The notes beneath the pieces were generated by a model. That model searched no databases. It was not told the origin of the DNA and saw only the letters and a program-made list of their open reading frames with translations. Of a DNA stretch of 64,000 nucleotides, positions 7,656 to 32,971 are shown in pieces. The position numbers were made by a program, and so were the translations under genes. How positions within the stretch are numbered: the stretch's first letter is position 1; each line of letters opens with the position of its first letter. Source of the stretch: Sphaerobacter sp. (GTDB taxonomy: Bacteria > Chloroflexota > Chloroflexia > Thermomicrobiales > Thermomicrobiaceae). The stretch covers positions 1 to 64,000 of the forward strand of contig JASBVL010000012.1 of the NCBI GenBank assembly GCA_029961075.1, read 5' to 3'.

Positions 7656-7858
7656 TATTTTGTTAGGTCGTTCACGATCCCTGCCACGCCGTTGTCACGC
7701 GCCCCAAGCGCTGGCACCCCCGACGGCTGCCAGATGGGGAAGCGCAGGGGGGGCGGCGCCCCATTTCCCGGGCCGGCGCCGCCCGCTCGGGGCGACGGCG
7801 TCCCCGGCCCGGCCGCGCGGCCGTCCCGGGCGGCGAAGCGGCCAACGCTTGCGCATAC

Positions 7859-7887
7859 TTGACAGCGAGCGCCGATGGCGCTATAGG
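7859..7887 (+). promoter_or_regulatory. Strong sigma-70 promoter upstream of the hydrolase pseudogene
   Basis: A perfect -35 TTGACA (7859-7864), a 17-base spacer and a -10 TATAGG (7882-7887) lie 55 bases before the hydrolase start. This is among the best promoter matches in the window and suggests the hydrolase-monooxygenase pair is still transcribed. Confidence 0.7.
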
Positions 7888-7941
7888 AAGAGCATCGGTG
7901 CTCTACAAGTCACACGTCTTGCGTAGAGAGGAGGCCGCGCG

Positions 7942-8880
7942 ATGCCGCTCGACAGCCAGGCCGAAGCGTTCCTGAAGCAGCTCGAAGCCCTGGGCGGCCC
8001 GGCGCTGAACGAGATGGAGCCGGCCGCGGCGCGGGAGGCGGCCGCGGCGTTGGGCGAGCTCGGCGGCCCGCCGGAGCCGGTCGCCCGCGTCGAGGATCGC
8101 ACGATCCCCGGTCCGGCTGGCGAGATCCCGGTGCGCATCTACACCCCAGAGGGGGGCGGACCCTTCCCCGCCGTCGTCTACTTCCATGGGGGCGGTTGGG
8201 TCATCGGCAGCCCCGACACCGTCGACGCCACCTGCGCCCTCCTGACCAACCGCGCCGGGGCCGTGGTGGTGTCGGTCGACTACCGGCTGGCGCCGGAGCA
8301 CAAGTTCCCGGCTGCGGTGGATGACTGCTACGCGGCGACGCAGTGGGTGGCGGCCAACGCGGCCGCCCTCAATGTCGACGCCGCTCGCCTCGCGGTCACC
8401 TGAGACAGCGCGGGCGGCAACCTGGCGGCGGTCGTGGCCGCCCTGGCGCGAGACGCCGGGACGCCGAAGCTGGCCTTCCAGGTCCTCTTCTATCCCGTGA
8501 CCAACTACGACTTCACCACGGCGTCCTACCAGGCCAACGGCACGGACTACTTCCTCACCACCGACATGATGCGGTGGTTCTGGGGGCACTACCTGCGCTC
8601 CGAGGAGGACGGGCGCGACTGGCGGGCCTCCCCCCTGCGGCTGGGGAACGCGGCCGGGCTGCCGCCCGCCTTCGTGGTGACGGCCGAGTTCGATCCACTC
8701 CGCGACGAGGGGGAGGCGTACGGCGAGTTGCTGCGCCAGGCCGGGAATCGCGTCATGATCAAGCGCTACGAGGGGCAGATCCACGGGTTCGTCACCCTGC
8801 TCGGGGCGATGGAGGCCGGCAAGCAGGCTATTGAATACGCGGCCGCGGAGCTGCGCCGGGCGTTCGATAGCGCCGCGTAG
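7942..8880 (+). pseudogene. Alpha/beta hydrolase (hormone-sensitive lipase family) interrupted by in-frame TGA at the nucleophile motif
   Basis: The start ATG has GGAGG upstream. The protein reads as an HSL-family esterase: oxyanion-hole YFHGGGW, then DYRLAPEHKFPAA. At 8401-8403 a TGA stands where the family has Gly of the GDSAGGN nucleophile elbow: the frame reads RLAVT, stop, DSAGGNLA. After the stop the same frame continues without error for 158 codons, including the acid motif FDPLRDEG and the catalytic His in IHGF. One G-to-T change (GGA to TGA) explains it. Without readthrough the product is 153 residues and lacks all three catalytic residues. Either a recent nonsense mutation, a sequencing error or recoding is possible; the first two are far likelier. 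The monooxygenase follows after 59 bases. Confidence 0.85.
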
Positions 8881-13089: not shown

Positions 13090-16000
13090 TCAGACACCCG
13101 ACGCGCGGGCCGCGGCCTGGCTCGGAACCGAGCTCGCTTCGGTGTTGGGCGGCGCGAGCAGCTCGGCCGCTCGCGATGAACCGGGCTGGGCCTCGACGTT
13201 CGCCGGGGTGGTGTGCTGCGTGAGGGCGTGCAACGGCCTGACGATCTGCTTGGCCTCCTCCTCGAGCTGTTTGAGGCGCCGCGTGAGCGACTCAGGCGAG
13301 GCCCCCTCGATCTCCCGGTAGTACGGGTCCGTTGGCGAGAGCGACAGTCCCGCGACGCTCACCAGCCTCAGCAGCGGCGCAAAGGGGAACCCGCAATGGC
13401 GCAGGTTGCGGATCGTCTCCTCGGACAACGCCCATGGCGCGTTGTCTCCGACCGGGTCGGACGCGCGCTGGCGCACGATCTCGACGAGCGCTGCCCGCAG
13501 CAGGACCTGCCGCGCCCGCTCCTCGAGCGATAGGCGCTCGGCTTCCCGCCGCTGCCGGGCGATCGCGCTGTCGCGCTCCTGGAGCGCGTCGAGGTGCTGG
13601 CGGAAGTCCGCCTCGGCCGCCGCCCGCGCAGCAGTCGACCAGCTCAGATCGCCGCCGTCGAGTGCCCGCTCGAGATCGACGATCCGGTCAATGCGCCGTG
13701 CCTGGTTCCCCACGGGCTGGTAATACGCCCGCAGGGGCACGGGGTCATCTTCGGCGCAGCGGAGCAGACCTGCCGCGCTGTCCGACCGTGCCGGCGGCTC
13801 GATCTGGGCGAGGAGCTCGTTCAGCAGCCGGTCGCCGTAGCTCACCAGGCGCACCGTATCCGGGTGGGCGTCGAACACCGCGCGGTCGAAGGTCACGGCC
13901 ACCTGCCCGTCGCCATGGGCGAGCAGCAAGGCGTGAGGGATGGTCGGGTGCGGCCTGAAGCGCTCGCGGAGGCTCGGCGAGTGGGTCAGCACGCGCTCCA
14001 GGTCGGCCAGCTCCACCGGTGTCCCCTGGGCGGTCGTTCCCTGCTCGTCCGCGGGGTGCGTGTCGAGACTCACCAGCTCCACCTGCTGCTGATCGATCGC
14101 GGCCCTGAGCCTGGCCATCTCCTCCTCAAGCCGGCGCTCTCGCTCGGCGCGCGGCAGCATCGCCAGCGTCTCGATCGACCGTGCCACCCCCGTCAGGATC
14201 GGCTGCAGCTCGCCGACGACGTCGGTAAACCACGCGATCCGGTCGCTCAGGCGCTCGTAGACCCGCGCCTCGATCGTGTCCTCGTAGAAGAAGTTGCGCA
14301 CCCATACGTCCGGATACCGCTGGCCGATGCGGTCGACGCGCCCGATGCGCTGCTCGACTCGCATCGGGTTCCAGGGCATGTCGTAGTTGATCAGCACGCC
14401 GCAGGTCTGGAGGTTGAGGCCCTCGCTGGCTGCCTCGGTGCAGAGGAGAATCTTGATCCGCTCGCCCTGGCGGAAGGCGTTCTTGATCTCCTCCTTGGTC
14501 GTCGGCGTCCATGCGCCGTCGCGCCACTCTTCGCCGCCACGGCCGGAGTAGCAGGCGATCTGGTGGCCGTAGACCTCGCGCAGCCGCTCGCGCAGGTAGT
14601 CCATCGTGTCGGTGTATTGGGTGAAGATGACGACCGTCTCCCGCCTGCGGAAGATCTCGCCGAGCATCGCCATCAGGCGCTCGAGCTTGGAGTCGCCGCT
14701 GAGGCGCCGGATGTCATGCAGGAAGTCCTCGACGTAGCGGATCTCCTCCCGGTAACCCCGGGCCAGCGCCTGCGCCAGCTCCTCGGAGATGTCCTGCTCA
14801 AGCTCGTCCACTTCCAGGTCATCGTCCGTCAGGCCGGGGTCGGGCGCCTGCCCCCGCAGGAACTCCAGGCGTCGCTGCAGGCTGCGCTCGATGGCGGCGA
14901 AGCTGGAGGTGAGGCGGCGGCGGTAGACCGTCATGATGAAGCCGAGGCCGCGCCGCTCCTGCTCGTAGCGGGCGTAGAATTCCGCGATGTACTCCTCGAT
15001 CCGGTCGTAGAGGTCGCGCTCCGCCGGCGTCATCTCGATCCAGACCGGCTGCGGATCGCGCTTGGGGATGGTGGCCCGAATAAGCCCGCGGCGGGCGTAC
15101 TCGCGCAGCAGCTCTCGGGTGTTGCGGAACATCAGCCGCCGGAGCGGCGTGTGCCGCCGGGCATACTCCTGCGCGACCGCCTGGGCTTCGACCGGGAGTC
15201 GCGCGATAGCCGCTCGGCGGCCGGCTGACCGGACCAGCGCGCGAACCCGATCCCAGTTCACCGGGCCGACCCGCGACATGGCCATCTCGGCCAGCCCCGG
15301 ATCCTCGGTGCCGCCGCTCTCCAGCTCGTCCCGCACCATGTCGAAGACGAAGTCCCAGTCGACCTCCTCGACGGGCTTGCGCAGCTCGCGGAAGAAGCGC
15401 AGGAAGTGCTGCTCATCCACGCCCCAGCGCCCGCCGAGTCCCAGGAGCATCAGAAGATCCCAGACCTCGACCGGGTGCACCTGCATCGGCGTGGCCGTCA
15501 GGAGCAGCATCCCCTGCGTTCGCTTGCGCAACTCGCGCAGCAGCTCCAGGAGGCGGTTCGGCCGGTCGCGCTGGGCGAGGAAGTCCCGCCGGCGAGCATG
15601 GTGCGCCTCGTCCACCACGACCAGGTCCCAGGGGAGGGCAGCGAGGACCTCCCGCTGGCGCTCACGCCGCTTGACGAGCTGGCTCGAGGCGAGCAGGACC
15701 GGCTCGCTGTCGAACGGGTTCGGCGTGGACGGCTCGCGCTCGTCGCCAAAGACGGTGATAAAGCGGCCCCCGTCGTAGCGCGGGATGTCGAGGAGGAACT
15801 TCTCATACAGCTCCTCCTGCCATTGGCGTATGACGCTGCGCGGCGTAAGGATCAGGCAGCGGCGCACGCGGCCGGAGAGGAGGAGTTGCCGGATTGCCAA
15901 CCCCGCCTCGATCGTCTTGCCCAACCCGACCTCGTCGGCGAGCAGGAACCGCTCTGGAAAGCGGGCGACGATGGCGTCGCTCACGCGCAACTGGTGCGGC

Positions 16001-16884
16001 CACGGCTCGATGGCTGCGGTGGCGGCGCCGAGGCGTCCGGCACCCGGCAGGTGGGGGGCGTCGCGGAGGAACTGGGCGAGGATCCGCGCCCGCTGGTCGT
16101 CATCCCTCGGCTGCTCGACGACGTAGATCGCCCGCTCGTCCGCGACCCCCGCGGGCACGGCCGTCTCCAGCGGGTCACGCGTCGGCGGGTACTCCGGTCG
16201 AAAGGCGATGAGGCGTTCGCGGACGGCCTCGGGGATCGGCAGCGCGATCCAGTCCCGCTCCGTGCCTTCCCAGAGTCGCTCGAAGCGCCGGACCACGCCG
16301 GCGAGGTATCGCTGGGAGTCGTCCCAGGACGTGAAGACCAACAACTGCTCGTAGTTGTGCTGCCAGCCGGTCGCCGACTCGTTGACGCTGCCGCTGAAGG
16401 CGACCTGGTTCCCGGCCGCGTCGGTGAAGACCCCCTCTTTGGTGTGGAAGTAGGGGGCGGCCCGGTCACCGGGCACAGGCAGCCCGTCCGGCCCGACCGG
16501 GAGAACGACCCGGATCTCCAGCGTTCCCTCGGCTACCATCCAGGCGAGCGCCTCAAGGCGACTGCGCAAGAGGAGGTCCTCCGGGTCCGCGAGCAGCGTG
16601 AGGAACTTCTCGCGGATTCGCTCCGCGAGGTGGTACCCCCGCTCGATCGCCGCGACATCCTCGTCGTCGAGCGAGGCGCCGACGAGGAGCCGCATCCGGC
16701 CGCCGTTCTGGATCAGGTGGGCGATGCCGGCTGCCGCGACCGCCAGCGCCGAGCTGGAGAAGAACCCCGTGGCCCGGTCGTAGCGCACGCTCCGCGCGAG
16801 CGCCGGGATGTAGAAGTCGTGGAGCCGGTCGTCGGCCGGGCCGTAGAAGAACTGGAACGCGTAGTCGCGGAGCAGGCTCGGCAC
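13090..16884 (-). CDS. PLD-family nuclease fused to SNF2/DEAH helicase; last gene of the defence-like operon
   Basis: A 1264-residue fusion. Residues about 1-210 are a phospholipase D-like nuclease module of the helicase-associated kind, with HTKEGVFTD (HxK at 147-149) and FSGSVNESATGW (164-174). A SNF2-type motor follows: ADEVGLGKT (316-324), VVVDEAHHARR (DEAH at 425-428), LLTATP (461-466), and in the second lobe EAASEGLNLQTCGVLINYD and EQRIGRVDRIGQ near 845. The C-terminal 400 residues are Arg/Glu-rich and resemble the tail of SNF2 helicases of phage-defence loci. It starts only three bases after the DUF1156 methylase stop, so they are one transcript. Expected role: translocation on DNA and cleavage of non-self DNA. 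In DISARM the PLD and SNF2 proteins are separate; here they are one chain. Confidence 0.88.
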   Translation of the reverse strand: MPSLLRDYAFQFFYGPADDRLHDFYIPALARSVRYDRATGFFSSSALAVAAAGIAHLIQNGGRMRLLVGASLDDEDVAAIERGYHLAERIREKFLTLLADPEDLLLRSRLEALAWMVAEGTLEIRVVLPVGPDGLPVPGDRAAPYFHTKEGVFTDAAGNQVAFSGSVNESATGWQHNYEQLLVFTSWDDSQRYLAGVVRRFERLWEGTERDWIALPIPEAVRERLIAFRPEYPPTRDPLETAVPAGVADERAIYVVEQPRDDDQRARILAQFLRDAPHLPGAGRLGAATAAIEPWPHQLRVSDAIVARFPERFLLADEVGLGKTIEAGLAIRQLLLSGRVRRCLILTPRSVIRQWQEELYEKFLLDIPRYDGGRFITVFGDEREPSTPNPFDSEPVLLASSQLVKRRERQREVLAALPWDLVVVDEAHHARRRDFLAQRDRPNRLLELLRELRKRTQGMLLLTATPMQVHPVEVWDLLMLLGLGGRWGVDEQHFLRFFRELRKPVEEVDWDFVFDMVRDELESGGTEDPGLAEMAMSRVGPVNWDRVRALVRSAGRRAAIARLPVEAQAVAQEYARRHTPLRRLMFRNTRELLREYARRGLIRATIPKRDPQPVWIEMTPAERDLYDRIEEYIAEFYARYEQERRGLGFIMTVYRRRLTSSFAAIERSLQRRLEFLRGQAPDPGLTDDDLEVDELEQDISEELAQALARGYREEIRYVEDFLHDIRRLSGDSKLERLMAMLGEIFRRRETVVIFTQYTDTMDYLRERLREVYGHQIACYSGRGGEEWRDGAWTPTTKEEIKNAFRQGERIKILLCTEAASEGLNLQTCGVLINYDMPWNPMRVEQRIGRVDRIGQRYPDVWVRNFFYEDTIEARVYERLSDRIAWFTDVVGELQPILTGVARSIETLAMLPRAERERRLEEEMARLRAAIDQQQVELVSLDTHPADEQGTTAQGTPVELADLERVLTHSPSLRERFRPHPTIPHALLLAHGDGQVAVTFDRAVFDAHPDTVRLVSYGDRLLNELLAQIEPPARSDSAAGLLRCAEDDPVPLRAYYQPVGNQARRIDRIVDLERALDGGDLSWSTAARAAAEADFRQHLDALQERDSAIARQRREAERLSLEERARQVLLRAALVEIVRQRASDPVGDNAPWALSEETIRNLRHCGFPFAPLLRLVSVAGLSLSPTDPYYREIEGASPESLTRRLKQLEEEAKQIVRPLHALTQHTTPANVEAQPGSSRAAELLAPPNTEASSVPSQAAARASGV

Positions 16885-16887
16885 AGA

Positions 16888-19830
16888 CTACTCCTCGTCC
16901 TCCTCGGCCTCGTCGAGGAAGCCCATCTGCCGCGCCACCTCGGGCGGAACCTCCTCGGCCGGAACCTCCAGGTCGTCGAAGAAAGCAAGTCGCAGCCGCT
17001 CCAGCGTCTCTGCCTCCGGCCGGGCGAAGGCTCCCTTGACCTTCGTCCGGGGGATGGCGTTGATGAGCGCCTGGAGGCAGGCCCGGAAGCGGCCGTCGCG
17101 GAGCAGGGTGGCGTCCTTCAGGAACTGCTGGCAGGCGCGCGGGCCGTCCTCCTCGTAGACGAGCATAGCCGTGTGCGCGGCGTCGATCAGGCTGGGGAAG
17201 TCCGTCGCCTCCGGGTCGACCACGCCGGTGCGCCGCCGCTCGCTCGGTGTCAGCAGCACCACCGAGCTCGCTGTCTTGGCGACGAGCCGCTCGCGGCGCA
17301 CGATGTCCTGCTCCAGGTCGAGCCCCAGCGCCAGCGCCAGCTTGCGGGCCTCGTCGGCCGCGAACTCGGCGGCCTTGAACGCGTCCCAGGCCATCAGATA
17401 CCAGTCGGTGGCCGGGTCGAACTGCACCGGGCGGCCGAGGAGCAGCCCCTCCTTGCGCAGGTTGATGACCTCCTCGCGGGCGAGGTCGAGCGCGACCTCC
17501 GGCCGCAGCGGCTTGGGCTGGCCGGTCTTCGGATCGACCTCGCTGGTCAGCACCGGCCAGCGCTCGGAGATGACGGAGAGGGCAGGGCCGAAGGCGCTGA
17601 TGTAGAGATCTACGCCGCTGATGCCCATCCTGGCGAACTCGGCCGCCCGCTCGCGCGCCACCCGGCGCACCCGGCCTTTGATGTCCTCCCACCAGACCGG
17701 CTCACTCGACGCCTCCTGCTTGCGACAGACGAGGAGGATCGTGCTCGCTGCTGCATTCTTCTTCGCCTGGTGCAGGCTATGCTCGCTCTCAGTGTGTACC
17801 GGCCAGGACGCCTCGATGCGGAACCCGGCAGTGATGAGAGCCGTGGCGAGGGTGTCCCAGGCTTCGACCTGCTTGTGGGTGAACATCACCGTCAGGACGC
17901 CGTCGGGGCGCAGGACGCGGTGGCACTCCCGGAAGATGGCAGCGATCTTCCGCTCGTAGTCCTGGCGCGCGAGGTCGCGGCGCCGGGAGCCGAAGTCGGC
18001 GAAGCGGGCCGGGTTGGCGACCGCCTCGTTGTCCTTGTCGGTCAGCTCGGCGCGGAACCAGTCCGGGTGGAGATCGCCGACGGTGCGCTTGAGCCAGACG
18101 TAGAAGAAGTCAGACAGCTCGCTGTACTGGACGTTGTCGTAGTACGGCGGGTCGATGCAGACAAGATGGACGGAGCCGGTGGCGACGGTGCTCAGGTCGG
18201 AAGCATCACCATGCGTGATGTGCAGCCGCTCGACTGGGGACTCGCCGTCCTGGCCCCAGAGCGGCAGGCGGGCAGGCTGGGCGAGCTTCGCGATCCCCTT
18301 GTAGGCATCCACAACTTGCTCAACGGCCCAGTCGAGGCCCTTGCCGGCCGCTACGACCGCCATCTCCCCGTGGCTCCACTTGAAGCTGAAGCCGTGCCGG
18401 TCGAAGGTGTTCTTGATGGCACCGCGAGTTACGTCTAGGCGGCTCATTCGGGAGTTGTAGTCGACCAGCTTGTCGACCACGATAGCCAGGTAGGTCCGGA
18501 CCGCCCGAGCCTGGTCTGCCGGCAGCTCGCGTTCGATCTCGGACGCCAGCTCGCGGAGCGTCTCGACGACGGTGCCGAGCGCCAGGAGCTGGCGCGGCGA
18601 GAAGAGATCCCGCCAGCGGGTCATGCCGTACTGCCGTGGCCGCTGATCGTTGCTGACAGGTGGCACCTCCTCATCCGGGACGATCCCATCGGCGAGCCAA
18701 CCGGGCAGCTTTCGGGCCAGCTCCTCTTCCGCTGCCGCTATCGCCGCGCGGTCCGCCGCACTCGGCGAGCGGAACTCCGTGCCGCGCTCGGTCTTGACCC
18801 CGACGACGTAGAGCTGCTGGCCCATCCGCCCGGCCTGCGCCTCGCGCTTGATGTAGTCGCCGTCGATGACGTCGCCGGTCCAGGGCGAGACGGCGACGCC
18901 GCGGCGGATGGTGCCCTGGTCAGGCTTGGCGCGCTCGACTTCCTTCCCTCGCACGACCTCGAAGCGGCACTCCGGCCAGTCCGGCTGGCAGACAAGCTTG
19001 ACTGCAACCGGATCGGACCCCTTCTGGAGCCACCAGTTGGGCGAGAGCGGCACCGGCTTGCCGGTCACCGGGCAGGCGACCGTCCGCGCCCAGAGGTAAA
19101 AGAGCGGGGGATGCGATCCATTTTCCCCAGCAAAGTACCGCCCGAGACGGTCACGCACACGACGGCTGAGTTCCGTGCCCCACCGCTGAATCGTCGCGGC
19201 GAATTCAGGGCCGAACCGTGCGGGGTAGTCCAGCGTCGCTGCGAGGATTACTGACGCGACTGGATTGAGTTCGTTGGCGTACGTCGTGAGCCCGAAACGC
19301 AGCGACTCCAGGGGGATCGATCCGCCGCCCGCGGTCGGGTCGACGACTGAAGGACCACCGGCTCCCCAGCAGTAGTGCATGAAGGCCTGGAGTATGGAGA
19401 GGTCTTCCTCAGAAGGGTTGACGGTGAACGCGCGAGGATAGGAGTACGCGTTGGGCACGAACGTGCCGGCCTGCCTTGCCCAGGTCAACAGCTTCCGGGC
19501 AGCGACCGGGTCGCCCTTGATGCCAAGGAGGCGTGTGAACCAGGCGTGGTAACGCTCCTCGGTCGGGAAGCGCTCCAGCAGCTCGGCTGGCCACTCCGCG
19601 CTCCAGGCCGGGAGGAGGCTCGCGAGGATCGCAGCCCGGCTGACGGTCAGCGGGCGGCGCGCCCACCAGATGTGGAGAAGAAACGGGGCTGGAAAGGGAG
19701 TACCGTATCCGCGCTCGCGCTGGCTTTCGATCCCGATCTCCGCGATCGGCAGCCAGCGCTCAATCAGCAGCTCCCCGGTCGTCGCCCTATGGGCCGGCTC
19801 GGTTGTCCCGGCCTCGGTGACCCCGTCCAC
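16888..19830 (-). CDS. DUF1156 DNA methylase (N6-adenine/N4-cytosine type) of the defence-like operon
   Basis: A 980-residue protein. The N-terminal DUF1156 domain (LIERWLPIAEIGIESQRER, HIWWARRPLTVSRAAILASL) is followed by the SAM-binding motif DPTAGGGSIPLESLRFG at 164-180. A mid-region has WARTVACPVTG and CQPDWPEC, a degenerate zinc-ribbon-like area. The catalytic motif IV DPPYYDN is at 560-566, the D-P-P-Y form used by exocyclic-amine DNA methyltransferases. Motif order (I before IV, widely separated) fits COG1743, annotated as adenine-specific methylase. It sits between the zinc-ribbon gene (96-base gap) and the PLD-SNF2 gene (3-base gap). Likely role: marking host DNA as self. Target sequence cannot be read from the protein. 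Confidence 0.88.
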   Translation of the reverse strand: MDGVTEAGTTEPAHRATTGELLIERWLPIAEIGIESQRERGYGTPFPAPFLLHIWWARRPLTVSRAAILASLLPAWSAEWPAELLERFPTEERYHAWFTRLLGIKGDPVAARKLLTWARQAGTFVPNAYSYPRAFTVNPSEEDLSILQAFMHYCWGAGGPSVVDPTAGGGSIPLESLRFGLTTYANELNPVASVILAATLDYPARFGPEFAATIQRWGTELSRRVRDRLGRYFAGENGSHPPLFYLWARTVACPVTGKPVPLSPNWWLQKGSDPVAVKLVCQPDWPECRFEVVRGKEVERAKPDQGTIRRGVAVSPWTGDVIDGDYIKREAQAGRMGQQLYVVGVKTERGTEFRSPSAADRAAIAAAEEELARKLPGWLADGIVPDEEVPPVSNDQRPRQYGMTRWRDLFSPRQLLALGTVVETLRELASEIERELPADQARAVRTYLAIVVDKLVDYNSRMSRLDVTRGAIKNTFDRHGFSFKWSHGEMAVVAAGKGLDWAVEQVVDAYKGIAKLAQPARLPLWGQDGESPVERLHITHGDASDLSTVATGSVHLVCIDPPYYDNVQYSELSDFFYVWLKRTVGDLHPDWFRAELTDKDNEAVANPARFADFGSRRRDLARQDYERKIAAIFRECHRVLRPDGVLTVMFTHKQVEAWDTLATALITAGFRIEASWPVHTESEHSLHQAKKNAAASTILLVCRKQEASSEPVWWEDIKGRVRRVARERAAEFARMGISGVDLYISAFGPALSVISERWPVLTSEVDPKTGQPKPLRPEVALDLAREEVINLRKEGLLLGRPVQFDPATDWYLMAWDAFKAAEFAADEARKLALALGLDLEQDIVRRERLVAKTASSVVLLTPSERRRTGVVDPEATDFPSLIDAAHTAMLVYEEDGPRACQQFLKDATLLRDGRFRACLQALINAIPRTKVKGAFARPEAETLERLRLAFFDDLEVPAEEVPPEVARQMGFLDEAEEDEE

Positions 19831-19926
19831 GATTACTCCTCCCCCATCGTCGTCGGCTGCTCAACGCCCTGAGCATCCGACAGGTGCCTGGGACGGCATT
19901 CCAGTGCCGGGACCTCGGCGTGAGAC

Positions 19927-20382
19927 TCAGTGGCTCCCGGTGCCCTCCGGTCCCTCAGTGCCAGGTCTGGAATCCCGCTTCCGCTTTGCGCTGCCATGGC
20001 CCCGATGCTGGCTGAGCGGTTCGTCACAGAGTCGGATTACGTTGCCGCTCTGGTCTTCTATCCGCTCGTAGTACCGATCGTTCTTCCGATCGATGATGCG
20101 GTGAATGCGGTTCCAGACCCCAGTCTTTCGGAAGAGCGAATCACCTGACCGGATCTCACGGAACGGCTTCCCCCGGCCTCCCTCTTTCGCCTTCATACGA
20201 ATAAACTCTCGCGTTTCGAGGGCCGCCTTCAGTGTGGCTTTTATGCGGCGGTTTCTTGACCCGCACTCGGGACAAGCGTCATCCTCCGCTTTCAGCGTAG
20301 CACCACAGTCTGCACAACGTATGACGGGCGAAACATTATGGTGGCGATCGGCTGCGTCCCCCTGCCCACCGTTCACAGTCAC
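19927..20382 (-). CDS. Small zinc-ribbon protein inserted in the defence-like operon
   Basis: A 151-residue basic protein. The N-terminus has a treble-cysteine ribbon, CADCGATLKAEDDACPECG, followed by a conserved body (WNRIHRIIDRKNDRYYERI, then VIRLCDEPLSQHRGHGSAK). I recognise that last block as recurring in small uncharacterised bacterial proteins but know no function. It starts with GTG at 20382 after GAGGTG. Base composition is distinct: hand counts give 55-62% G+C in four 60-base lines against 70% in a neighbouring gene line, so it may be a separate acquisition. It lies 66 bases after the small helical gene and 96 bases before the methylase. It may be a system component or a passenger. 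Confidence 0.7.
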   Translation of the reverse strand: MTVNGGQGDAADRHHNVSPVIRCADCGATLKAEDDACPECGSRNRRIKATLKAALETREFIRMKAKEGGRGKPFREIRSGDSLFRKTGVWNRIHRIIDRKNDRYYERIEDQSGNVIRLCDEPLSQHRGHGSAKRKRDSRPGTEGPEGTGSH

Positions 20383-20448
20383 ACCCTCACACCTCAGCCA
20401 CTGCGAAACAGGAAGCCCAGTGTCATCGCACCGTGCTCGACGAGATCC

Positions 20449-20895
20449 TCAGTCGCGCGCCAGCAGCACCCGTAGGGCGCGCTGGGCCTGGCGCCCGTTA
20501 CCGCTCGCGACACACTTGCTGAACCAGTAGTAGGCCTCCTCCGCCGGCATGTCACGGATCCCCGCGGCGATCGCCTCCATGCGCACCACTTTCGTCAGCG
20601 GCCGCAGGGCGAGGAACAGGAGACCGAGGCGGACGCCGGTCTCCTCGCTTACCGGCAGCGCTTCTGCCTGGCCTGGACGGAGTGCGGTTGGCCGGTGCCC
20701 CTCACGCCGGAGCGCGTCGAGGATCTGGTCGAACGCGACCTGGAGCGGCGTACCGCGCAGCGTGGCGAGGTGGCGCATCTCCGCGCGGCTGCTGCCGTTG
20801 CTCGTGAGTCGCTGCTGGCAGAGCGCAAGTCGGTAGCGGTCGCCTTGCTCGGGCAGCACACGGAGCTCGAAGGCGAGCGGCTGCCGGTTGCTCAC
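20449..20895 (-). CDS. Small helical protein of unknown function coupled to the DUF499 ATPase
   Basis: A 148-residue protein, FELRVLPEQGDRYRLALCQQ at the start and mostly helical later (ALPVSEETGVRLGLLFLALR; ADMP-like turn; YYWFSKCVASG near the end). I do not recognise catalytic residues. Its ATG overlaps the stop of the DUF499 gene by four bases (ATGA), so stoichiometric co-translation with the ATPase is likely. It therefore looks like an ATPase partner or adaptor rather than a stand-alone enzyme. Similar small genes accompany DUF499 genes in comparable loci, from memory. Confidence 0.7.
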   Translation of the reverse strand: MSNRQPLAFELRVLPEQGDRYRLALCQQRLTSNGSSRAEMRHLATLRGTPLQVAFDQILDALRREGHRPTALRPGQAEALPVSEETGVRLGLLFLALRPLTKVVRMEAIAAGIRDMPAEEAYYWFSKCVASGNGRQAQRALRVLLARD

Positions 20896-23800
20896 GGGAG
20901 CACCTCCGTGTCTTCCGTCACCGGCTCCGCCTTAACGGTGAGCCGGCCGAAGCCGAGTTGGTCGAAGATGTCGCGCATCTGGCCGAACTGGTCACTATCG
21001 ACCGCCAGCCCGTCGGGGAAGGTCGCCTGGAGGGTCGTCCTGATGGTGAGCTTGGCGGCTTCCTTACCGAACTCGTCGGTGACGGTTCGTAGGCGCTTGT
21101 AGCGATCCCAACTACCGTTGAAGGTCAGGTGGAAGTACTCGCCCTGGCCGAACTCAATCGTCAGTACCTGCTCCACGCGGAACTGTCCCTTGCCGAGCTG
21201 TGGGACGGCCAGACCAAGCGCGCGTACCTCGGCGGCGCCCACCGGCCCGTCTCCTTCGAGGTGTATGGTCAGGCTACGGATCGCGTCGATCTTCTTATCG
21301 AGGCACGTGTCCGAGATCGCCTGGAAGACCTGAGCCGGCGCGCCCTCGGCCTTGAGCGGTAGCGTCACCACTGGCGGTGGCGGTGGCGGTGGCCAGTTCG
21401 CCGGGCTGATCACGTCTCCGCAGATGCACTGGTCGGTCGGCTGGCCGCAGACGGGGCATCGCTCAACGACTGGCTCGACCTCCTCACCCCGGATCGCGAT
21501 GTGCCGCCGTCGCGCCTCTTCTGGCGTGAAGAGGGCCACGTCGTCACTGAGCTGGACGGATGGTGGCGGTGACACCTGGCCGTAGCCCCGGTTCTCGTGC
21601 GGATCGAAGTAGACCCAGAGGCCCTGCTGGATGCCGTCCCTGATGGCTCGCTTGAGCTGGTTGACGTCGAGCAGCATGGGCAGGCTGAGCCGCTTCGCGA
21701 ACGCCCGTCGCAGATCCTCGGTGGTCATCTGGTCCTGGCCGACATCCCACGCCTTGGCCTTGACGTACTGGGCCGCCATCGGGGGATCGTCTGCGGTCCG
21801 CACCTTGTCGATCTGCTTGAGAACCCGCAGCACGACGGTGGATTGGTCCGACCGCACCTCGCCCTGATCCTGGGCGGGCAGGACCTCACGCGCGAGGTTT
21901 GCGGCGTCGCGTGGTGCATCGCCGCTCGGATAGTAGAGGTAGCGGTAGGCCCGGGTGATCGCGACCCGGAGCTCCAGCTCGGCGCTGTCCCGCAGTTGGC
22001 GCAGCTTCCGGCGCTGCTCCTCGGTGAAAGCCTGGAGGCGATCGGTGTCTTCGATGATCCGGCCGATCGCGAGGTAGCGACGCGCCTGCTCGACGAGGTC
22101 GCTGACCTGGTCCCGGTCGGCGACGAGGAAGATGAGGTTGTTCTTGTAGACGCGATAGCCCTCGCGGGAGCCGGCGTACTCGAAGATCCGGCGGACGAAG
22201 TCCGGCGGGGCGGGGTCGCTCGCGGTGGCCGCCGCCGCGTCGTAGTGGATCACGACGAGCTTCGGCTCCCGTGCGTCGTCGTCGACCTCGCTCGCCTCGC
22301 TGGGGAAGTAGACCGGCTGGAACACGCCTCTCCGCCAGACCTGTCGGATGCGCTCGTCGAGGAGCGCCTTGGCCCGGGTTGTCCCGACGACGGACATTTC
22401 GTCGGCCACGACCTTGTTGATCGACGGCTCGGTCTTGAACTGGTAGCGGTGGCCGTTGTAGTCGAGGAACCAGCAGGCATCGACCAGGCGCTCGGTGGCC
22501 CGATCGATCAGCGTGGGGTCGTCACCCGGCTGGACGACGGCGAGGCGAAGGTCGGCCGGATCCACGCCGGAGGCGATGCCTTGGGTCAGGCTGTGGAGGA
22601 AGATCGTCGTCGCGACGCGCTGGGCGTACGGCGGCTTCCCGGCCGCGACCCAGGCGGTGTCGATCGTCTGGGCGTGCGAGCGGGTGCCAGGAAGCGAGCT
22701 GGCGATGTCGGCCTCGATGACCTGCTTGAAGGCCGGGCGGTCGAGCCGGCTGGTGAGGTCGTCGGCGATCTGCGGCACGGCGAGATCGAGATGGTGGGGG
22801 TGGATCAGGTAGGTGTCGGCCGGTCGGGTCTCCCAGAGCCGTCGGATGGTCATGGCGAGGAGCCGAAGAGCGCCGCGCGTCTTCTGGAAGTTGGGGATGG
22901 TCGACGTCTTCCGGTTCAGCGTATTCAGCAGCTCCGGGTGGAAGGGGTAGGCGGCTCGCATCTCCCCCGCGTAGTCCGCCCGGCCGGCGCGCTGGGGGAG
23001 ATCGGCCTGCTGCTCGAGCAGTTGCGCGTAGTACTGGTGGTAGGCGACGGTCACCGCCTCCGCAGCGTCGCCCCGAATGCTGCGGAAGAGGCGGTGGGTG
23101 ACGATCTTCGCGATCTCGGTCTCGCCGGTCGGAGTGATGACTCGCTCCTGGCGCGCGCTGACGCGGCGGGCCTCGGCCAGCTCCTCGCGCAGCGCCTCTC
23201 GCAGCTCGTCGGTCTCGGCCCCGAAGGCGTCGCTCGAGTCGGCCAGGGTGAGCACGACGACCACCCGCTCCCGGCTGGCGGCGAACTCGAGGAGCGACAT
23301 AAGGAAGGCGACGGTCTGCTCGGCCAGGTCGCTCCTGCCGGTGCCGGTCGGGACCGCCTTGGCGGAGCGGAGATGGCGAGCGACCTCGTCGAGCATGATC
23401 AGCGCAGGCTGGTCTCCGACGATCTGCTGCCAGACCCCGGTGCCGGGCGCGGCCTTCGTGTTCCGGTCACTCTCGGCGACGAGCTGGTACGCGGCCAGAC
23501 CGCCGAGCTGGTAGGCCAGCTCGCCCCAGAGGGTGTAGGTGGTCACGTCTCGGTGCAGGAGGCCGCTCGACGGGTCAAGGTCCGAGCCGACGACGCCAGC
23601 GATGCGGATCTCCCCCGGGGCCGGAATAAGGCTGCGGTCGACGCTCGTCCGGGCGGCGTCGCTGCCGCGGGCCGCATGGTAGAGCGCGATCAGGTTGTGC
23701 GTCTTCCCGCCACCGAAGGAGGTCTCGAGCCGGATGATCGGATTGCTGCTCGAGCGTTGGCCGGTCAGCCGCCCGAGCGCCTCTTCGAGGAGCGCCTTCA

Positions 23801-23966
23801 AGCCGTCGGTGGGGTACGTGTTCTCGAAGAACGTTTGCGGGTCCTGATAGACGGCCTCCGCGCTCCCATCGATGACGTCCTTGAGGCGCGCGGCGAAGAC
23901 CTCCTCTTTCAGCTCGCCGTGCAGCACCTCGGAGCGTGGCTCACACGCATCGAAGATCGTTTGCAT
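20892..23966 (-). CDS. DUF499-family large P-loop ATPase, first gene of the defence-like operon
   Basis: A 1024-residue AAA+-like ATPase of COG1483 type. The DUF499 Walker A form ETSFGGGKTHNLIALYH lies at about 81-97; Walker B is in PALIMLDEVARHLR. A central region has REGYRVYKNNLIFLVAD. The C-terminal part has a zinc-binding CPVCGQPTDQCICG followed by a Pro-rich linker, then a domain with SIRSLTIHLEGDGPVG-like strands. DUF499 proteins are uncharacterised but cluster with DNA methylases and helicases in predicted defence loci. ATG at 23966 was chosen because the family begins MxTxxDACxPR; ATG at 23996 would add ten residues. No convincing promoter was found upstream. It probably acts as the energy-dependent sensor or organiser. 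Confidence 0.85.
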   Translation of the reverse strand: MQTIFDACEPRSEVLHGELKEEVFAARLKDVIDGSAEAVYQDPQTFFENTYPTDGLKALLEEALGRLTGQRSSSNPIIRLETSFGGGKTHNLIALYHAARGSDAARTSVDRSLIPAPGEIRIAGVVGSDLDPSSGLLHRDVTTYTLWGELAYQLGGLAAYQLVAESDRNTKAAPGTGVWQQIVGDQPALIMLDEVARHLRSAKAVPTGTGRSDLAEQTVAFLMSLLEFAASRERVVVVLTLADSSDAFGAETDELREALREELAEARRVSARQERVITPTGETEIAKIVTHRLFRSIRGDAAEAVTVAYHQYYAQLLEQQADLPQRAGRADYAGEMRAAYPFHPELLNTLNRKTSTIPNFQKTRGALRLLAMTIRRLWETRPADTYLIHPHHLDLAVPQIADDLTSRLDRPAFKQVIEADIASSLPGTRSHAQTIDTAWVAAGKPPYAQRVATTIFLHSLTQGIASGVDPADLRLAVVQPGDDPTLIDRATERLVDACWFLDYNGHRYQFKTEPSINKVVADEMSVVGTTRAKALLDERIRQVWRRGVFQPVYFPSEASEVDDDAREPKLVVIHYDAAAATASDPAPPDFVRRIFEYAGSREGYRVYKNNLIFLVADRDQVSDLVEQARRYLAIGRIIEDTDRLQAFTEEQRRKLRQLRDSAELELRVAITRAYRYLYYPSGDAPRDAANLAREVLPAQDQGEVRSDQSTVVLRVLKQIDKVRTADDPPMAAQYVKAKAWDVGQDQMTTEDLRRAFAKRLSLPMLLDVNQLKRAIRDGIQQGLWVYFDPHENRGYGQVSPPPSVQLSDDVALFTPEEARRRHIAIRGEEVEPVVERCPVCGQPTDQCICGDVISPANWPPPPPPPVVTLPLKAEGAPAQVFQAISDTCLDKKIDAIRSLTIHLEGDGPVGAAEVRALGLAVPQLGKGQFRVEQVLTIEFGQGEYFHLTFNGSWDRYKRLRTVTDEFGKEAAKLTIRTTLQATFPDGLAVDSDQFGQMRDIFDQLGFGRLTVKAEPVTEDTEVLP

Positions 23967-24491
23967 CGGTCCGATTCCATGTCCTGCCCGCGCCATACGC
24001 GCCCGATAGCTCGTCGGGTCTCAATCAGGTCAAACGGGCGACGCGGGCTCTCGGTCGCAACTCGGGCGACCGCCCGTTGCCGCTCCCATCCCTGGCCGAG
24101 TGCGCGTCGTCACCCGTGAGCCACCGGCGGCGTGGGAGAGGGGCTTGCTCGTCAATGTCCATCAACCTTGTGCCTTGACCCGATGATGGTACCGCAGCGG
24201 TGCTTCTCGCGTACAGAGCCCGATCGTCCCAGGTTGCGACGCTGGCCAGGACGGGCGCACGCGGACATGGCGACGAGCACGCTCGTGCCGATCTGCCTAT
24301 CCGGCATTACACACGAAATAGGAGAGTGGATTCAAGTCCCCGGCGCGGATCCATGACGCGGTTGCGAGCGGCTGGGGTGCGTGGAGGTCAGCCACGCTTG
24401 GCGCCCGGATGGAGCGCTGGGGCGTGGGACGACGTCGCCCCGGCGGGTATTCGCCGGGGCGACTTTGCCCGCGCTGTTGCGGGCCATGGGG
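23967..24491. other. Leader and spacer between the defence-like operon and the tRNA cluster
   Basis: No gene is supported in these 525 bases. A 12-bp perfect hairpin (GTCGCCCCGGCG at 24434-24445 with its complement at 24452-24463) is followed on the plus strand by TTTGCC; on the minus strand it lies 30-60 bases beyond tRNA-Phe and could act as a transcript end for the tRNA trio, though without a T-run in that direction. No tRNA 3'-end duplication was seen at the far end of the operon. Confidence 0.4.
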
Positions 24492-26667: not shown

Positions 26668-28193
26668 GTGTTGACCAAGCTCACGAGCAAACCGGCCGCG
26701 CTGGCACAGCGGAGCGGACCGACCGCGCAATGGGCCGCGCCCCTGCTGATCGGGGTGACGGTGCTGGCCGCGGTCGTGGCGCTGGCCGGGGTCGCCGGCC
26801 TGGTTTACGGCTGGACGCACGGTCCCACGATCTACCGGGGCGTGAGCGTTGCCGGCGTGCCACTCGGCGGCCTCTCGCTGCCGGAGGCCCACCGGCGCAT
26901 TGACGAGGTGGTGCTTGCCGAGGCTCCGCGCGAGATCGAGCTGATCGCGGGCGACGTGCGGCGGACGGTGTCCCTGGCCGACCTCGGCGCGCGGGTGGAC
27001 ACGGCCGCGACCGCCGCGGCCGCCTATCGCTGGGGCCGGAGCGGCGACCTGTGGGCCGACAGCCGCGCCTGGCTATCGGGGCTGCTGGGCGGCCACGAGG
27101 TGCCGCTGGTGGTGACGCTGGACGGGGCCGCGGTCCAGCGCACACTCGAGGAGCTGGCGCCCGCGGTGGCGCGTCCGCCGCGCGACGCGACCTATGCGGA
27201 CGATGGCACGGGCAGGTTGACGGTCGTGCCGGGCGACGACGGCGTCGGGGTGGATGTCGCCGCGACCGCGCGGCAGATCCGGCAGCGGCTTCAGGATCTC
27301 TCCGGCCAGCCGGTGACGCTGGTCACGGTGCCGGTGCCGCAGCGGGTGGACGCGCGCGCGCTCGAGCGCGGTCTGCCAGCGGCCGAGGCGCTGGCCAGCG
27401 AGCCGGTGCTGTTGACCCACGGCGAGCAGCGCTGGTTGCTGGAGCCGGCGACGCTGCGCGGCATGCTGACCCTGGCCGAGGGCGGCTCCGAGGAGCGGCC
27501 GGAGGTGACGCTCGACCGCGATCGGCTGCGCGCGAGCATTGCCAGCCTGGACGACCAGGTGACCCGGCTGGGCGAGACCCCGGCGCCCGTGTGGGATGGG
27601 GCGCGCTTCGTCGCTCAGCCGGCGGCGGACGGGGAGGCGCTCGACGTCGAGGCAACCGTGGACGCGATCATCCGCGGGCTGGCGGACGGCCGGCGCGAGA
27701 TCGCGATCGTGACGCGCTCGACTCCCGCGCCGGTCAACCCGGAGGCCGCGCAAGACGCGGCCGAGCGCGCGACGGTACTGGTCGCGGGGGGACTGACCGT
27801 GACCTGGCCGGACGGGAGCCGCCAGTTGAGCGCGGGCGAGCTGGCCGAGGCGATCCGGTTCGCGGTGCGGCCAGGCGCACCCGGGGTGCTGGAGCCGGAG
27901 GTGGACCGCGCGGCGCTCGCGCAGGTGCTGCAGCGGCACGCGGGCGAGATCGAGATCCCGGCGCGCGACGCCGATCTCCGCTACATCGGCGGGCAGGTGA
28001 CGGTCCGCTCGCCGGAGCAGGTCGGGCGCACACTGGATCTCGAGCGGTCGGCGGCGGCGGTCGCCGAGGCACTGGAGGCGGGCCGGCGGCAGGCCGCGCT
28101 GGTGACCCGGCAGGTCCAGCCGGTCGTCACCGCGGCCATGGCCGGCACGGTCCAGATCCGGGAGCGGTTGGCCGTCGCCGAGACCTCCCCAGG
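26668..28193 (+). pseudogene. VanW-like protein with peptidoglycan-binding repeats, C-terminal part lost
   Basis: Starts at GTG 26668. About 508 residues are authentic: a membrane anchor (APLLIGVTVLAAVVALAGVA), then YRGVSVAGVPLGGLSLPEA and further YkuD/VanW-associated peptidoglycan-binding modules (GVGVDVAATARQIRQRL, DGEALDVEATVDAIIRGL, EQVGRTLDLERSAAAVAEAL). Proteins of this build end with a VanW domain beginning in a T-S-F/Y-x-G-S-S block. Here the frame reads RERLAVAETS and homology stops at about 28193. The ORF runs on in frame to 29088, but that tail overlaps an antisense DUF445 remnant and an out-of-frame NrtR-like remnant, so an automatic call of one 806-residue protein would be chimeric. 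Confidence 0.75.
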
Positions 28194-28370
28194 GCACGGC
28201 CGAGCTCTCCGCGGTGACGGGGCAAAACCCCGGGGAGTGAGCGGAACGCACGCGTCCGACGCACACAGGCTCGTGGGGACGAAAGATGAGCCATACGGCG
28301 ACGGCGCCGTCGCCCAACCGATGAACGCCCCGACGGCGGTGAGGAGGATGGCGTTCCAGAGGAGAGACAC
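28194..28370 (-). pseudogene. N-terminal remnant of a DUF445 membrane protein, frameshifted
   Basis: On the minus strand a GTG at 28370, preceded by AAGGAAGG and an extended -10 (TGG TACGAT, 28410-28402), opens VSLLWNAILLTAVGAFIGWA, the first helix of DUF445 proteins. The next DUF445 blocks are present but in other frames: AVAVWLIFRPHEPV one frame away, then LPGVLPRHRGELGRALG in the third frame. Homology ends at about 28194, exactly where the VanW-like gene on the other strand breaks. About 60 of the usual 400 residues remain. The intact promoter and ribosome site with a shattered coding part indicate decay after a rearrangement. Confidence 0.7.
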
Positions 28371-28457
28371 AGGCGCACCTTCCTTTCCGCTTATATTGCA
28401 TATCGTACCACGGACATTCGGGCGTAGAACGGTCTCGCCCAGCTTCGTCCGGGGGAA

Positions 28458-29072
28458 CCCCATGCCCGCAGGAGCTTTCCCCGTCTCGACGAGCCGCTGG
28501 ACGAGGCGGCGCAGCGCATCCTGGTGGAGACGACCGGGCTGTGGGGGGTGTACCTGGAGCAGCTCTACACCTTCGGCGATCCCGGACGGGATCCGCGCGG
28601 GCGGGCCATCTCCGTGGCGTACTACGCCCTCCTGCGCCCCGGCGCCGCCGGGCATCCGCCGCGCCGCATGGCGCGCCCGGGGAGCGGGGTCGCCGAGGCG
28701 GCCTGGTATCCGGCCGATGCGCTGCCCGGTGCCCTGGCGTTCGACCACGGGCGGATCGCGGCCTACGCCCGCTGGCGCCTGGCCCAGAAGATCAGCTACA
28801 CGCCCCTTGCCTTCTACCTGTTGCCCGAGCGCTTCACCATGGCGGACCTGCGCGCGGTTCACGAGGCGGTGGCCGGTGAGCGCTACGACCCGAGCAACTT
28901 CGCGCGCCAGATGCTGGCGCGCTGGGATCTGGCGCCGGTGCCGGGCGAGCGCGACCGCCGGTCGCGCCGGCCGGCGCGGCTGTTCCAGTACATCGGCCCG
29001 CGGGAGATCCCGGGGCCGCCGGAGCCGCTCGCGCCGCCGCGGCGCGAGCGGCTGCGGGACGACCTCGCCTGA
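28458..29072 (+). pseudogene. NrtR-like Nudix-HTH regulator lacking its N-terminal half
   Basis: The frame from about 28482 reads RLDEPLDEAAQRILVETTGL, then VYLEQLYTFGDPGRDPRG, the second half of the Nudix fold of NrtR-type NAD regulators. The C-terminal winged-helix domain is complete (LAQKISYTPLAFYLLPERFT, DLRAVHEAVAGERYDPSNFA, and RRPARLFQYI). The roughly 50 N-terminal residues with the core Nudix sheet and the GG of the Nudix box are missing; upstream is the DUF445 remnant. The only in-frame start (GTG 28524) has no ribosome site. nadA begins 66 bases downstream, the pathway NrtR usually controls, so the regulator of NAD synthesis seems to have been lost. Confidence 0.75.
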
Positions 29073-29138
29073 CTTCGACAACGGCTGAGTTGCGCGGCGG
29101 AGCCGTGCCGTGCCCCGCCGGCGCCGGAGGGACTGACC

Positions 29139-30134
29139 ATGAGCGCCCTGAGTACCGTCCCCATGGTGGACGCCAGTGAGCCGGCCGACGCCGCCGCCTT
29201 GATCGCGGAGATCAACCGGCTGCGCCGCGAGCGCAATGCCGTCATCCTGGCCCACAGCTACCAGATCCCGGTCATCCAGGACCTCGCGGACTTCGTGGGC
29301 GACTCGCTCGGGCTGTCGCGCCAGGCGGCCACCACTGACGCCGACGTCATCGTCTTCTGCGGGGTCCACTTCATGGCGGAGACGGCGGCCATCCTCAGCC
29401 CGGACAAGACCGTGCTGCTGCCCGACCTGGACGCCGGCTGCTCGCTGGCGGCCAGCATCACGGCCGAGCAACTGCGCGCCTGGAAGGCGGAGCACCCGGG
29501 CGCCGTCGTCGTCTCCTACGTCAACACGACGGCCGAGGTGAAGGCGGAGAGCGATTACTGCTGCACCTCCGCCAACGCCGTCGAGATCGTGGAAAGCATC
29601 CCCCCCGACCGGGAGATCCTGTTCCTGCCCGACCTCTTCCTGGGCGAGTGGGTCCGCCGCGCCACCGGCCGCGACAACATCCACGTCTGGCTCGGCGAGT
29701 GCCACGTGCACGCCGGGATTGTGGCGGAGGATGTGGAGCGGGCGCGCGCGGCGCACCCCGACGCCGAGTTGCTGGTGCATCCGGAGTGCGCCTGCGGCTC
29801 GCGCTGCCTCCTCGACCTCCAGGCGGGCCGCCTGGACGCGCGGCGAACCCACGTGCTCTCGACCGAGGGCATGGTGCGCCACGCCGCGGCGTCGGACGCG
29901 GAGGCGTTCCTGGTGGCGACCGAGACCGGCGTGCTCCACCGCCTGCGCCTCCAGGCGCCGGGCAAGCGCTTCTACCCGGTCCGGGAAGCCGCCGTGTGCA
30001 ACTACATGAAGATGATCACCCTGGAGAAGGTGTACCGCTCGCTGCGGGACATGGTCTACCCGGTCATCGTCGCGCCCGAGATCGCCGAGCGTGCGCGGGT
30101 GGCGATCGACCGCATGATCGCGGTCGGCCGCTAG
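29139..30134 (+). CDS. nadA: Quinolinate synthase A
   Basis: A 331-residue NadA that condenses iminoaspartate with dihydroxyacetone phosphate to quinolinate, using a 4Fe-4S cluster. Family blocks: [70 protein letters not shown]. By spacing and context the likely cluster ligands are Cys101 (LDAGCSLA), Cys188 (GECHVH) and Cys287 (AAVCNYMK). The ATG at 29139 follows CGGAGGGAC. nadB and nadC are not in the window. It follows an NrtR-like remnant, fitting an old NAD regulon. No NrtR operator was recognised upstream. Confidence 0.95.
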
Positions 30135-32517: not shown

Positions 32518-32706
32518 TCAGCGCCGCCGGCTGAGCAGCTTGCGCAGTCGCCCGCTCCAGACGACCTCCGTCACTGGGCGCTGTTCGGGCAGCACGAGGA
32601 TCGCCACGGCCAGCCAACCGATCGCGGCGACCGGGTTGAACGGGAAGGTACCGGTGGCAAACGCAGCTGCCGTCAGCGCCAGGATACGTCGTGCGCGCGT
32701 GGTCAT
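32518..32706 (-). CDS. 62-residue membrane protein of unknown function
   Basis: A short ORF with an excellent ribosome site (GAGGAGG seven bases before the ATG at 32706). The product is basic at both ends (MTTRARRIL; LRKLLSRRR) with two hydrophobic stretches (ALTAAAFATG and AAIGWLAVAILVLP) separated by a FPFNP turn, so a two-helix membrane protein is likely. Function unknown. It converges on the LuxR-type regulator across the 42-base palindrome. The strong ribosome site is the main reason to believe it is real. Confidence 0.6.
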   Translation of the reverse strand: MTTRARRILALTAAAFATGTFPFNPVAAIGWLAVAILVLPEQRPVTEVVWSGRLRKLLSRRR

Positions 32707-32724
32707 GCTCGTGCCTCCTCAGCC

Positions 32725-32790
32725 GTCACGGAGGTGCGGCGGCGCGGACGCGCCTCACTGCTCGTACCCTGAGGAAAGCACCTCCGGCGT
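32725..32790 (-). promoter_or_regulatory. Interrupted inverted repeat upstream of the small membrane gene
   Basis: GTCACGGAGGTGC near 32725-32737 can pair with GCACCTCCGGCGTGAC near 32775-32790, apart from a three-base bulge. It lies just upstream of the 62-residue gene and could be an operator pair or a leader hairpin. No sigma-70 boxes were clear. Confidence 0.3.
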
Positions 32791-32971
32791 GACGCGCGCG
32801 CCGGGGCGGCGGCACCGAGCGTTACAGGCCCGTATCAACCGCGGCGCGGGTACCTGGCGGGTGCGAGGCGCCCCTGGGTCGCTGCCGGCGTCGCGGTGAG
32901 CGCAGGCCGCGACCCTGCCGCCGGGCGGGGGATCGGGAGGGTATCCTCGTCGCGATGCGATACGCAGCGGG

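Follow-up and report, generated by a model that had tools for sequence, protein, structure and literature searches.

The DNA between positions 26668 and 29072 raises the question of whether the three gene pieces that lie there side by side were joined in the cell or by the assembler. The window, i.e. the whole 64,000-nucleotide stretch analysed, comprises bases 1–64000 of contig C24 (79,642 bp) in the draft genome G000 of Sphaerobacter sp., a 3.57 Mb assembly of 131 contigs with 91.17% completeness. The window is free of Ns. A mechanical ORF list places an 806-residue ORF at 26668–29088 (frame +1), and a first-pass annotation had read the same stretch as VanW-like, DUF445 and NrtR-like fragments covered by one false ORF. 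All of these elements are present in the sequence. The ORF follows VanW coding sequence to about 28186, continues through the antisense of the DUF445 piece, and finishes in NrtR sequence read out of frame. It is spurious whichever origin the joint has, and it is not to be annotated. The nearest relatives used for comparison were the genus mates G001 and G002, the latter assembled in two contigs.

The first piece (26668–28186, plus strand) is the head of a VanW-family gene and encodes the membrane anchor and the PG_binding_4 region. A Pfam search of 26668–28221 returned PG_binding_4 (PF12229, E 2.8e-34), and the translation is 61% identical to the G001 and G002 homologues over about 505 residues. 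Homology to the VanW locus of the genus mates breaks off at 28186, in mid-gene; the first-pass annotation had put the end at about 28193. The fragment up to this point corresponds to the first two thirds of the protein. In G001 the homologue is a 775-codon open frame with its VanW domain starting at residue 550; this domain (PF04294) gave no match in 26668–28221 or anywhere in the G000 assembly. The piece shares the N-terminal anchor and peptidoglycan-binding repeats of VanW-family proteins with PG_binding_4 repeats, but differs from them in the absence of the VanW domain itself.

The third piece (28487–29072, plus strand) is the tail of an NrtR-like regulator. Its true frame is +3, in which 28482–29009 was aligned, and it is 89–90% identical to its counterparts in G001 and G002. 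The homology begins at about 28487, near residue 47 of the intact protein, so that the first 46 or so residues are missing and the last three quarters remain; an NrtR-like half had been noted from after 28458, and its presence holds with a start that lies a little later. The winged-helix domain is retained (NrtR_WHD, PF21906, E 1.1e-13), and the Pfam search found no NUDIX domain in the fragment, a domain matched at E 8.9e-14 in the G001 homologue. Compared to NrtR, the Nudix-related repressor of NAD synthesis genes, the piece has the same winged-helix domain and the same place directly before nadA, but lacks the N-terminal stretch that includes the start of the NUDIX domain. The nadA gene (quinolinate synthase, 29139–30134, plus strand) is intact and, in the genus mates, normally lies next to nrtR. 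In both G001 and G002 the vanW and nrtR homologues are full length and occupy separate loci. Hence each of the two genes in the window is truncated at one end relative to intact homologues, as originally described, and neither genus mate has such a short form.

A separate observation concerns the DNA ahead of nrtR in the genus. A conserved block, TTGACAGTCTTTGGTAC...GACTATTAT, aligns between positions 1–70 of locus L067 (G000 contig C87) and the loci L043 and L047. It has the look of a promoter that overlaps an inverted repeat (AGTC/GACT), and it is a candidate for the NrtR operator of this genus.

Between the two host-like pieces lies an insert of about 300 bp, of which only some 184 bp are DUF445 coding sequence. 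This N-terminal piece of a Bacillota-type gene (28187–28370, minus strand) starts at GTG 28370, preceded by a GGAAGG-like ribosome-binding site, and carries at least two frameshifts. The remainder (28371–28486, minus strand) is the DNA upstream of the piece, with the ribosome-binding site and an AT-richer stretch, and has no match in relatives. When the minus strand was aligned, with frameshifts allowed, to a profile built from 73 DUF445 N-termini, the score was 59.2 bits, compared to 34.0 bits without frameshifts and a maximum of 17.9 bits among 39 random stretches of the window. The path requires two frameshifts, and a third is likely near 28229–28233 by eye. The assignment of an antisense DUF445 N-terminus split over three frames is thereby borne out. 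Solely for searching, the frames were connected across the shifts to give one continuous protein; this joined version gave a 60-bit HMM match, compared to 55–101 bits for intact members, a score that is compatible with decay by substitutions as well as with indels alone. The family signature (GAxIGWxT..A...FRP) and the start-codon position are those of Bacillota-type DUF445 proteins, which differ in being full-length open genes. Pfam matched the insert weakly to PF04286 (E 0.091, profile positions 1–46), and no PF04286 match reached threshold in G000.

The insert looks foreign on compositional and similarity grounds. Third-position GC along the DUF445 path is 0.80, compared to 0.93–0.96 in three host genes. 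A search of 30 near relatives found no DUF445, and 22 of 400 Chloroflexota genomes have a match, almost all of them from one family of another lineage. A tblastn search returned ordinary Bacillota-type DUF445 members, e.g. from Listeria (34% over 62 residues, E 3e-7), and the Listeria protein in question matches PF04286 along its full length. A scan of 85,000 species retrieved 72 DUF445 relatives with identities of up to about 50%, many of them from Bacillota. As the query was a three-row alignment in which two rows had been made up to loosen the patterns, this result indicates family and affinity, not a source. Comparison of the insert translation with plasmid and phage records gave only ordinary DUF445 of Bacillota or Fusobacteria type. 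At the DNA level, 100 relatives yielded no meaningful match, viral contigs shared no exact 24-mer with the insert, and a single-sequence scan of genome contigs returned nothing. A near-identical source was thus not found in these searches, the best amino acid identity being about 50%. The insert length resembles a read length, which is a hint only. At the seam, inspection by eye showed no more than weak chance repeats, such as CGAGAC/GTCTCG, an inverted match of 6 bp.

The position of the flanks in relatives defines the joint. The window from 4602 to 28186 is collinear with about 1.733–1.743 Mb of G002 contig C1 on the minus strand, a defence island excepted, and from 28487 onwards it matches, again collinearly, the plus strand of the same contig starting at 953.7 kb. 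The joint (28186–28487, with no strand of its own) therefore connects the loci at G002 C1:1,733,156 and C1:953,655 across some 300 bp. In G002 these break points are separated by 779,501 bp (about 780 kb) on the 2.74 Mb contig, and in G001 they lie on two different contigs. In G000, contig C87 runs collinear to the nrtR-upstream DNA of G002 and terminates about 30 bp ahead of the nrtR start codon, i.e. some 165 bp from the break; the chance of some contig ending this near is 1–2%. The true neighbour of the NrtR piece is thus present at a loose contig end. For the VanW side of the joint, G000 has no DNA match to the VanW tail or to the roughly 6.7 kb that follow it in G002, purH included, and neither the VanW nor the PurH family has a match in that assembly. 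PurH was matched in 29 of 30 relatives, and in 17 of these it shares a contig with the vanW homologue, at a distance of a few kb. The reciprocal junction, an nrtR head beside the VanW tail, was not found in the G000 assembly; it would fall at the end of C87, and the VanW tail and purH are missing. Frameshifts were found neither in the VanW and NrtR parts nor in the other G000 ORFs compared with relatives, each of whose matches ran in one frame, so that the indels are confined to the foreign insert.

Three origins of the joint can be weighed against these data, and the weights expressed below are a matter of judgement, not of computation. Misassembly, which the first-pass annotation had named as its own alternative, is the best-supported single reading, and we regard a chimeric contig joint in this fragmented draft as the moderately probable origin. 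Contig breaks in this draft also fall in unique sequence, as contig C69 begins mid-way through an ordinary gene. In a mock-community benchmark (PMC11261854), the number of chimeric contigs per genome ranged from 2.6 with SPAdes to 22 with megahit. The window shares with such contigs the mid-gene joining of unrelated pieces, foreign DNA where they meet, a contig that stops at the expected neighbour, and conserved genes missing beside the seam. Two of these features speak for it: the contig end close to the break and the foreign, frameshifted insert. C87 holds the nrtR-upstream DNA, and a misjoin would be expected to leave the true neighbour with such a loose end. The missing VanW tail and purH fit an artefact or a real event alike. 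We infer that the assembler, and not the cell, made the join. The contig with the VanW locus, for which the assembly lacks the genes next downstream (VanW tail to purH), would have been connected to the nrtR–nadA contig via about 300 bp of lower-quality Bacillota-like DNA, and the true upstream neighbour of nrtR would be left over as C87, stopping just before the start of the gene. The living genome would then resemble the genus mates, with whole vanW and nrtR genes at two separate loci. Counting against an artefact are the terminus-centred geometry of the break points, the lack of Ns, and the failure to find a near-identical source of the insert; unlike the published chimeric contigs, this join happens to mimic a symmetric inversion.

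That geometry is the main argument for a real event. The joint could be one end of a large inversion, roughly symmetric about the replication terminus, that broke inside vanW and nrtR and trapped some 300 bp of foreign DNA, an origin that we hold plausible but less probable than not. The break points lie in opposite replichores, their orientation matches an inversion, and they are nearly equidistant from the terminus: their midpoint is at 1.343 Mb of G002 C1, and the GC-skew sign changes near 1.305 Mb. The contig opens with an ORF that we take to be dnaA. For a random misjoin such a position is expected in about 5% of cases, and in half as many when orientation is considered. In addition, at least one other order change separates G000 from G002, on contig C122. 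Many bacterial clades commonly show symmetric inversions (PMC5850607), and the window shares their replichore placement, inverted orientation and terminus distances. It differs from them in that no reciprocal junction was found in the assembly, C87 stopping 165 bp short of the place, in the lack of a recognised repeat at the breaks, and in its filler, which is foreign and frameshifted. Both breaks lie in mid-gene, and the dispersed repeat found near the C122 order change was not found in the window. The part of the earlier proposal that called the stretch a deletion or inversion junction thus stands as to the junction and its inverted orientation, but not as to a deletion from one larger region. 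The latter idea, extended to a decayed scar in which a DUF445-bearing foreign island was inserted and later mostly deleted together with the vanW and nrtR ends, is very improbable. It would account for a frameshifted foreign fragment between two truncated genes and for the missing VanW-tail-to-purH segment. However, the VanW and NrtR flanks are not neighbours in the relatives examined, so that deletion alone is unable to join them; with the three pieces never adjacent there and DUF445 found in none of 30 near relatives, a common region whose middle was removed finds no support. Nor do the flanks show decay, the indels being limited to the foreign piece, and a cell without purH would lack a step in purine synthesis that has been retained by 29 of 30 relatives.

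Under a chimeric joint, as under an inversion, the joint is ordinary, and its main value is as a warning: that this draft seems to have lost the VanW domain, nrtR and purH is not to be taken as biology until the joint has been checked. Were the inversion real, vanW and nrtR would both be lost, although the VanW anchor and peptidoglycan-binding part might still be made, nadA would be left without its repressor and normal promoter, and the reciprocal junction would be located at the end of C87. It would then be a well-placed example of an inversion between replichores that took up foreign DNA, an unusual case but no new kind of event. The full scenario, in which a single inversion broke vanW and nrtR together, captured a fragment of Bacillota DNA and deprived nadA of repressor and promoter, is offered a little more tentatively still than the inversion as such.

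The order change on C122 lies in locus L068 (G000 C122, positions 7720–8651), where DNA from 2.29 Mb of G002 adjoins DNA from 1.726 Mb, between genes. A short palindromic dispersed repeat with the core GCCCGGGGCTCAGGCCCCGGGCT...AGCCCACTGAAGCGGGCT occupies 7790–7945 of the locus; many copies of it occur in G000, G001 and G002, and none was found in the window. This change looks like an ordinary rearrangement, from which the window joint differs in being in mid-gene on both sides, in its foreign filler and in lacking the repeat. As a consequence of the C122 change, the missing 6.7 kb that extend from the VanW tail to purH have an order change on either side.

Two further differences from G002 were noted elsewhere in the window. 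At 32706–32969, G002 carries about 15 kb of extra DNA at the same place (L044, 2311–17353). On the minus strand at 13090–23996, a three-gene anti-phage cluster resembles the Hma system (HmaA-, HmaB- and HmaC-like in PADLOC), and its genes match the NCBIfam PLD-helicase, DUF1156 and DUF499 antiphage models, all under the NCBIfam cut-offs. The cluster lies within a stretch of about 11.5 kb, and the blocks on either side of it adjoin each other in G001 and G002.
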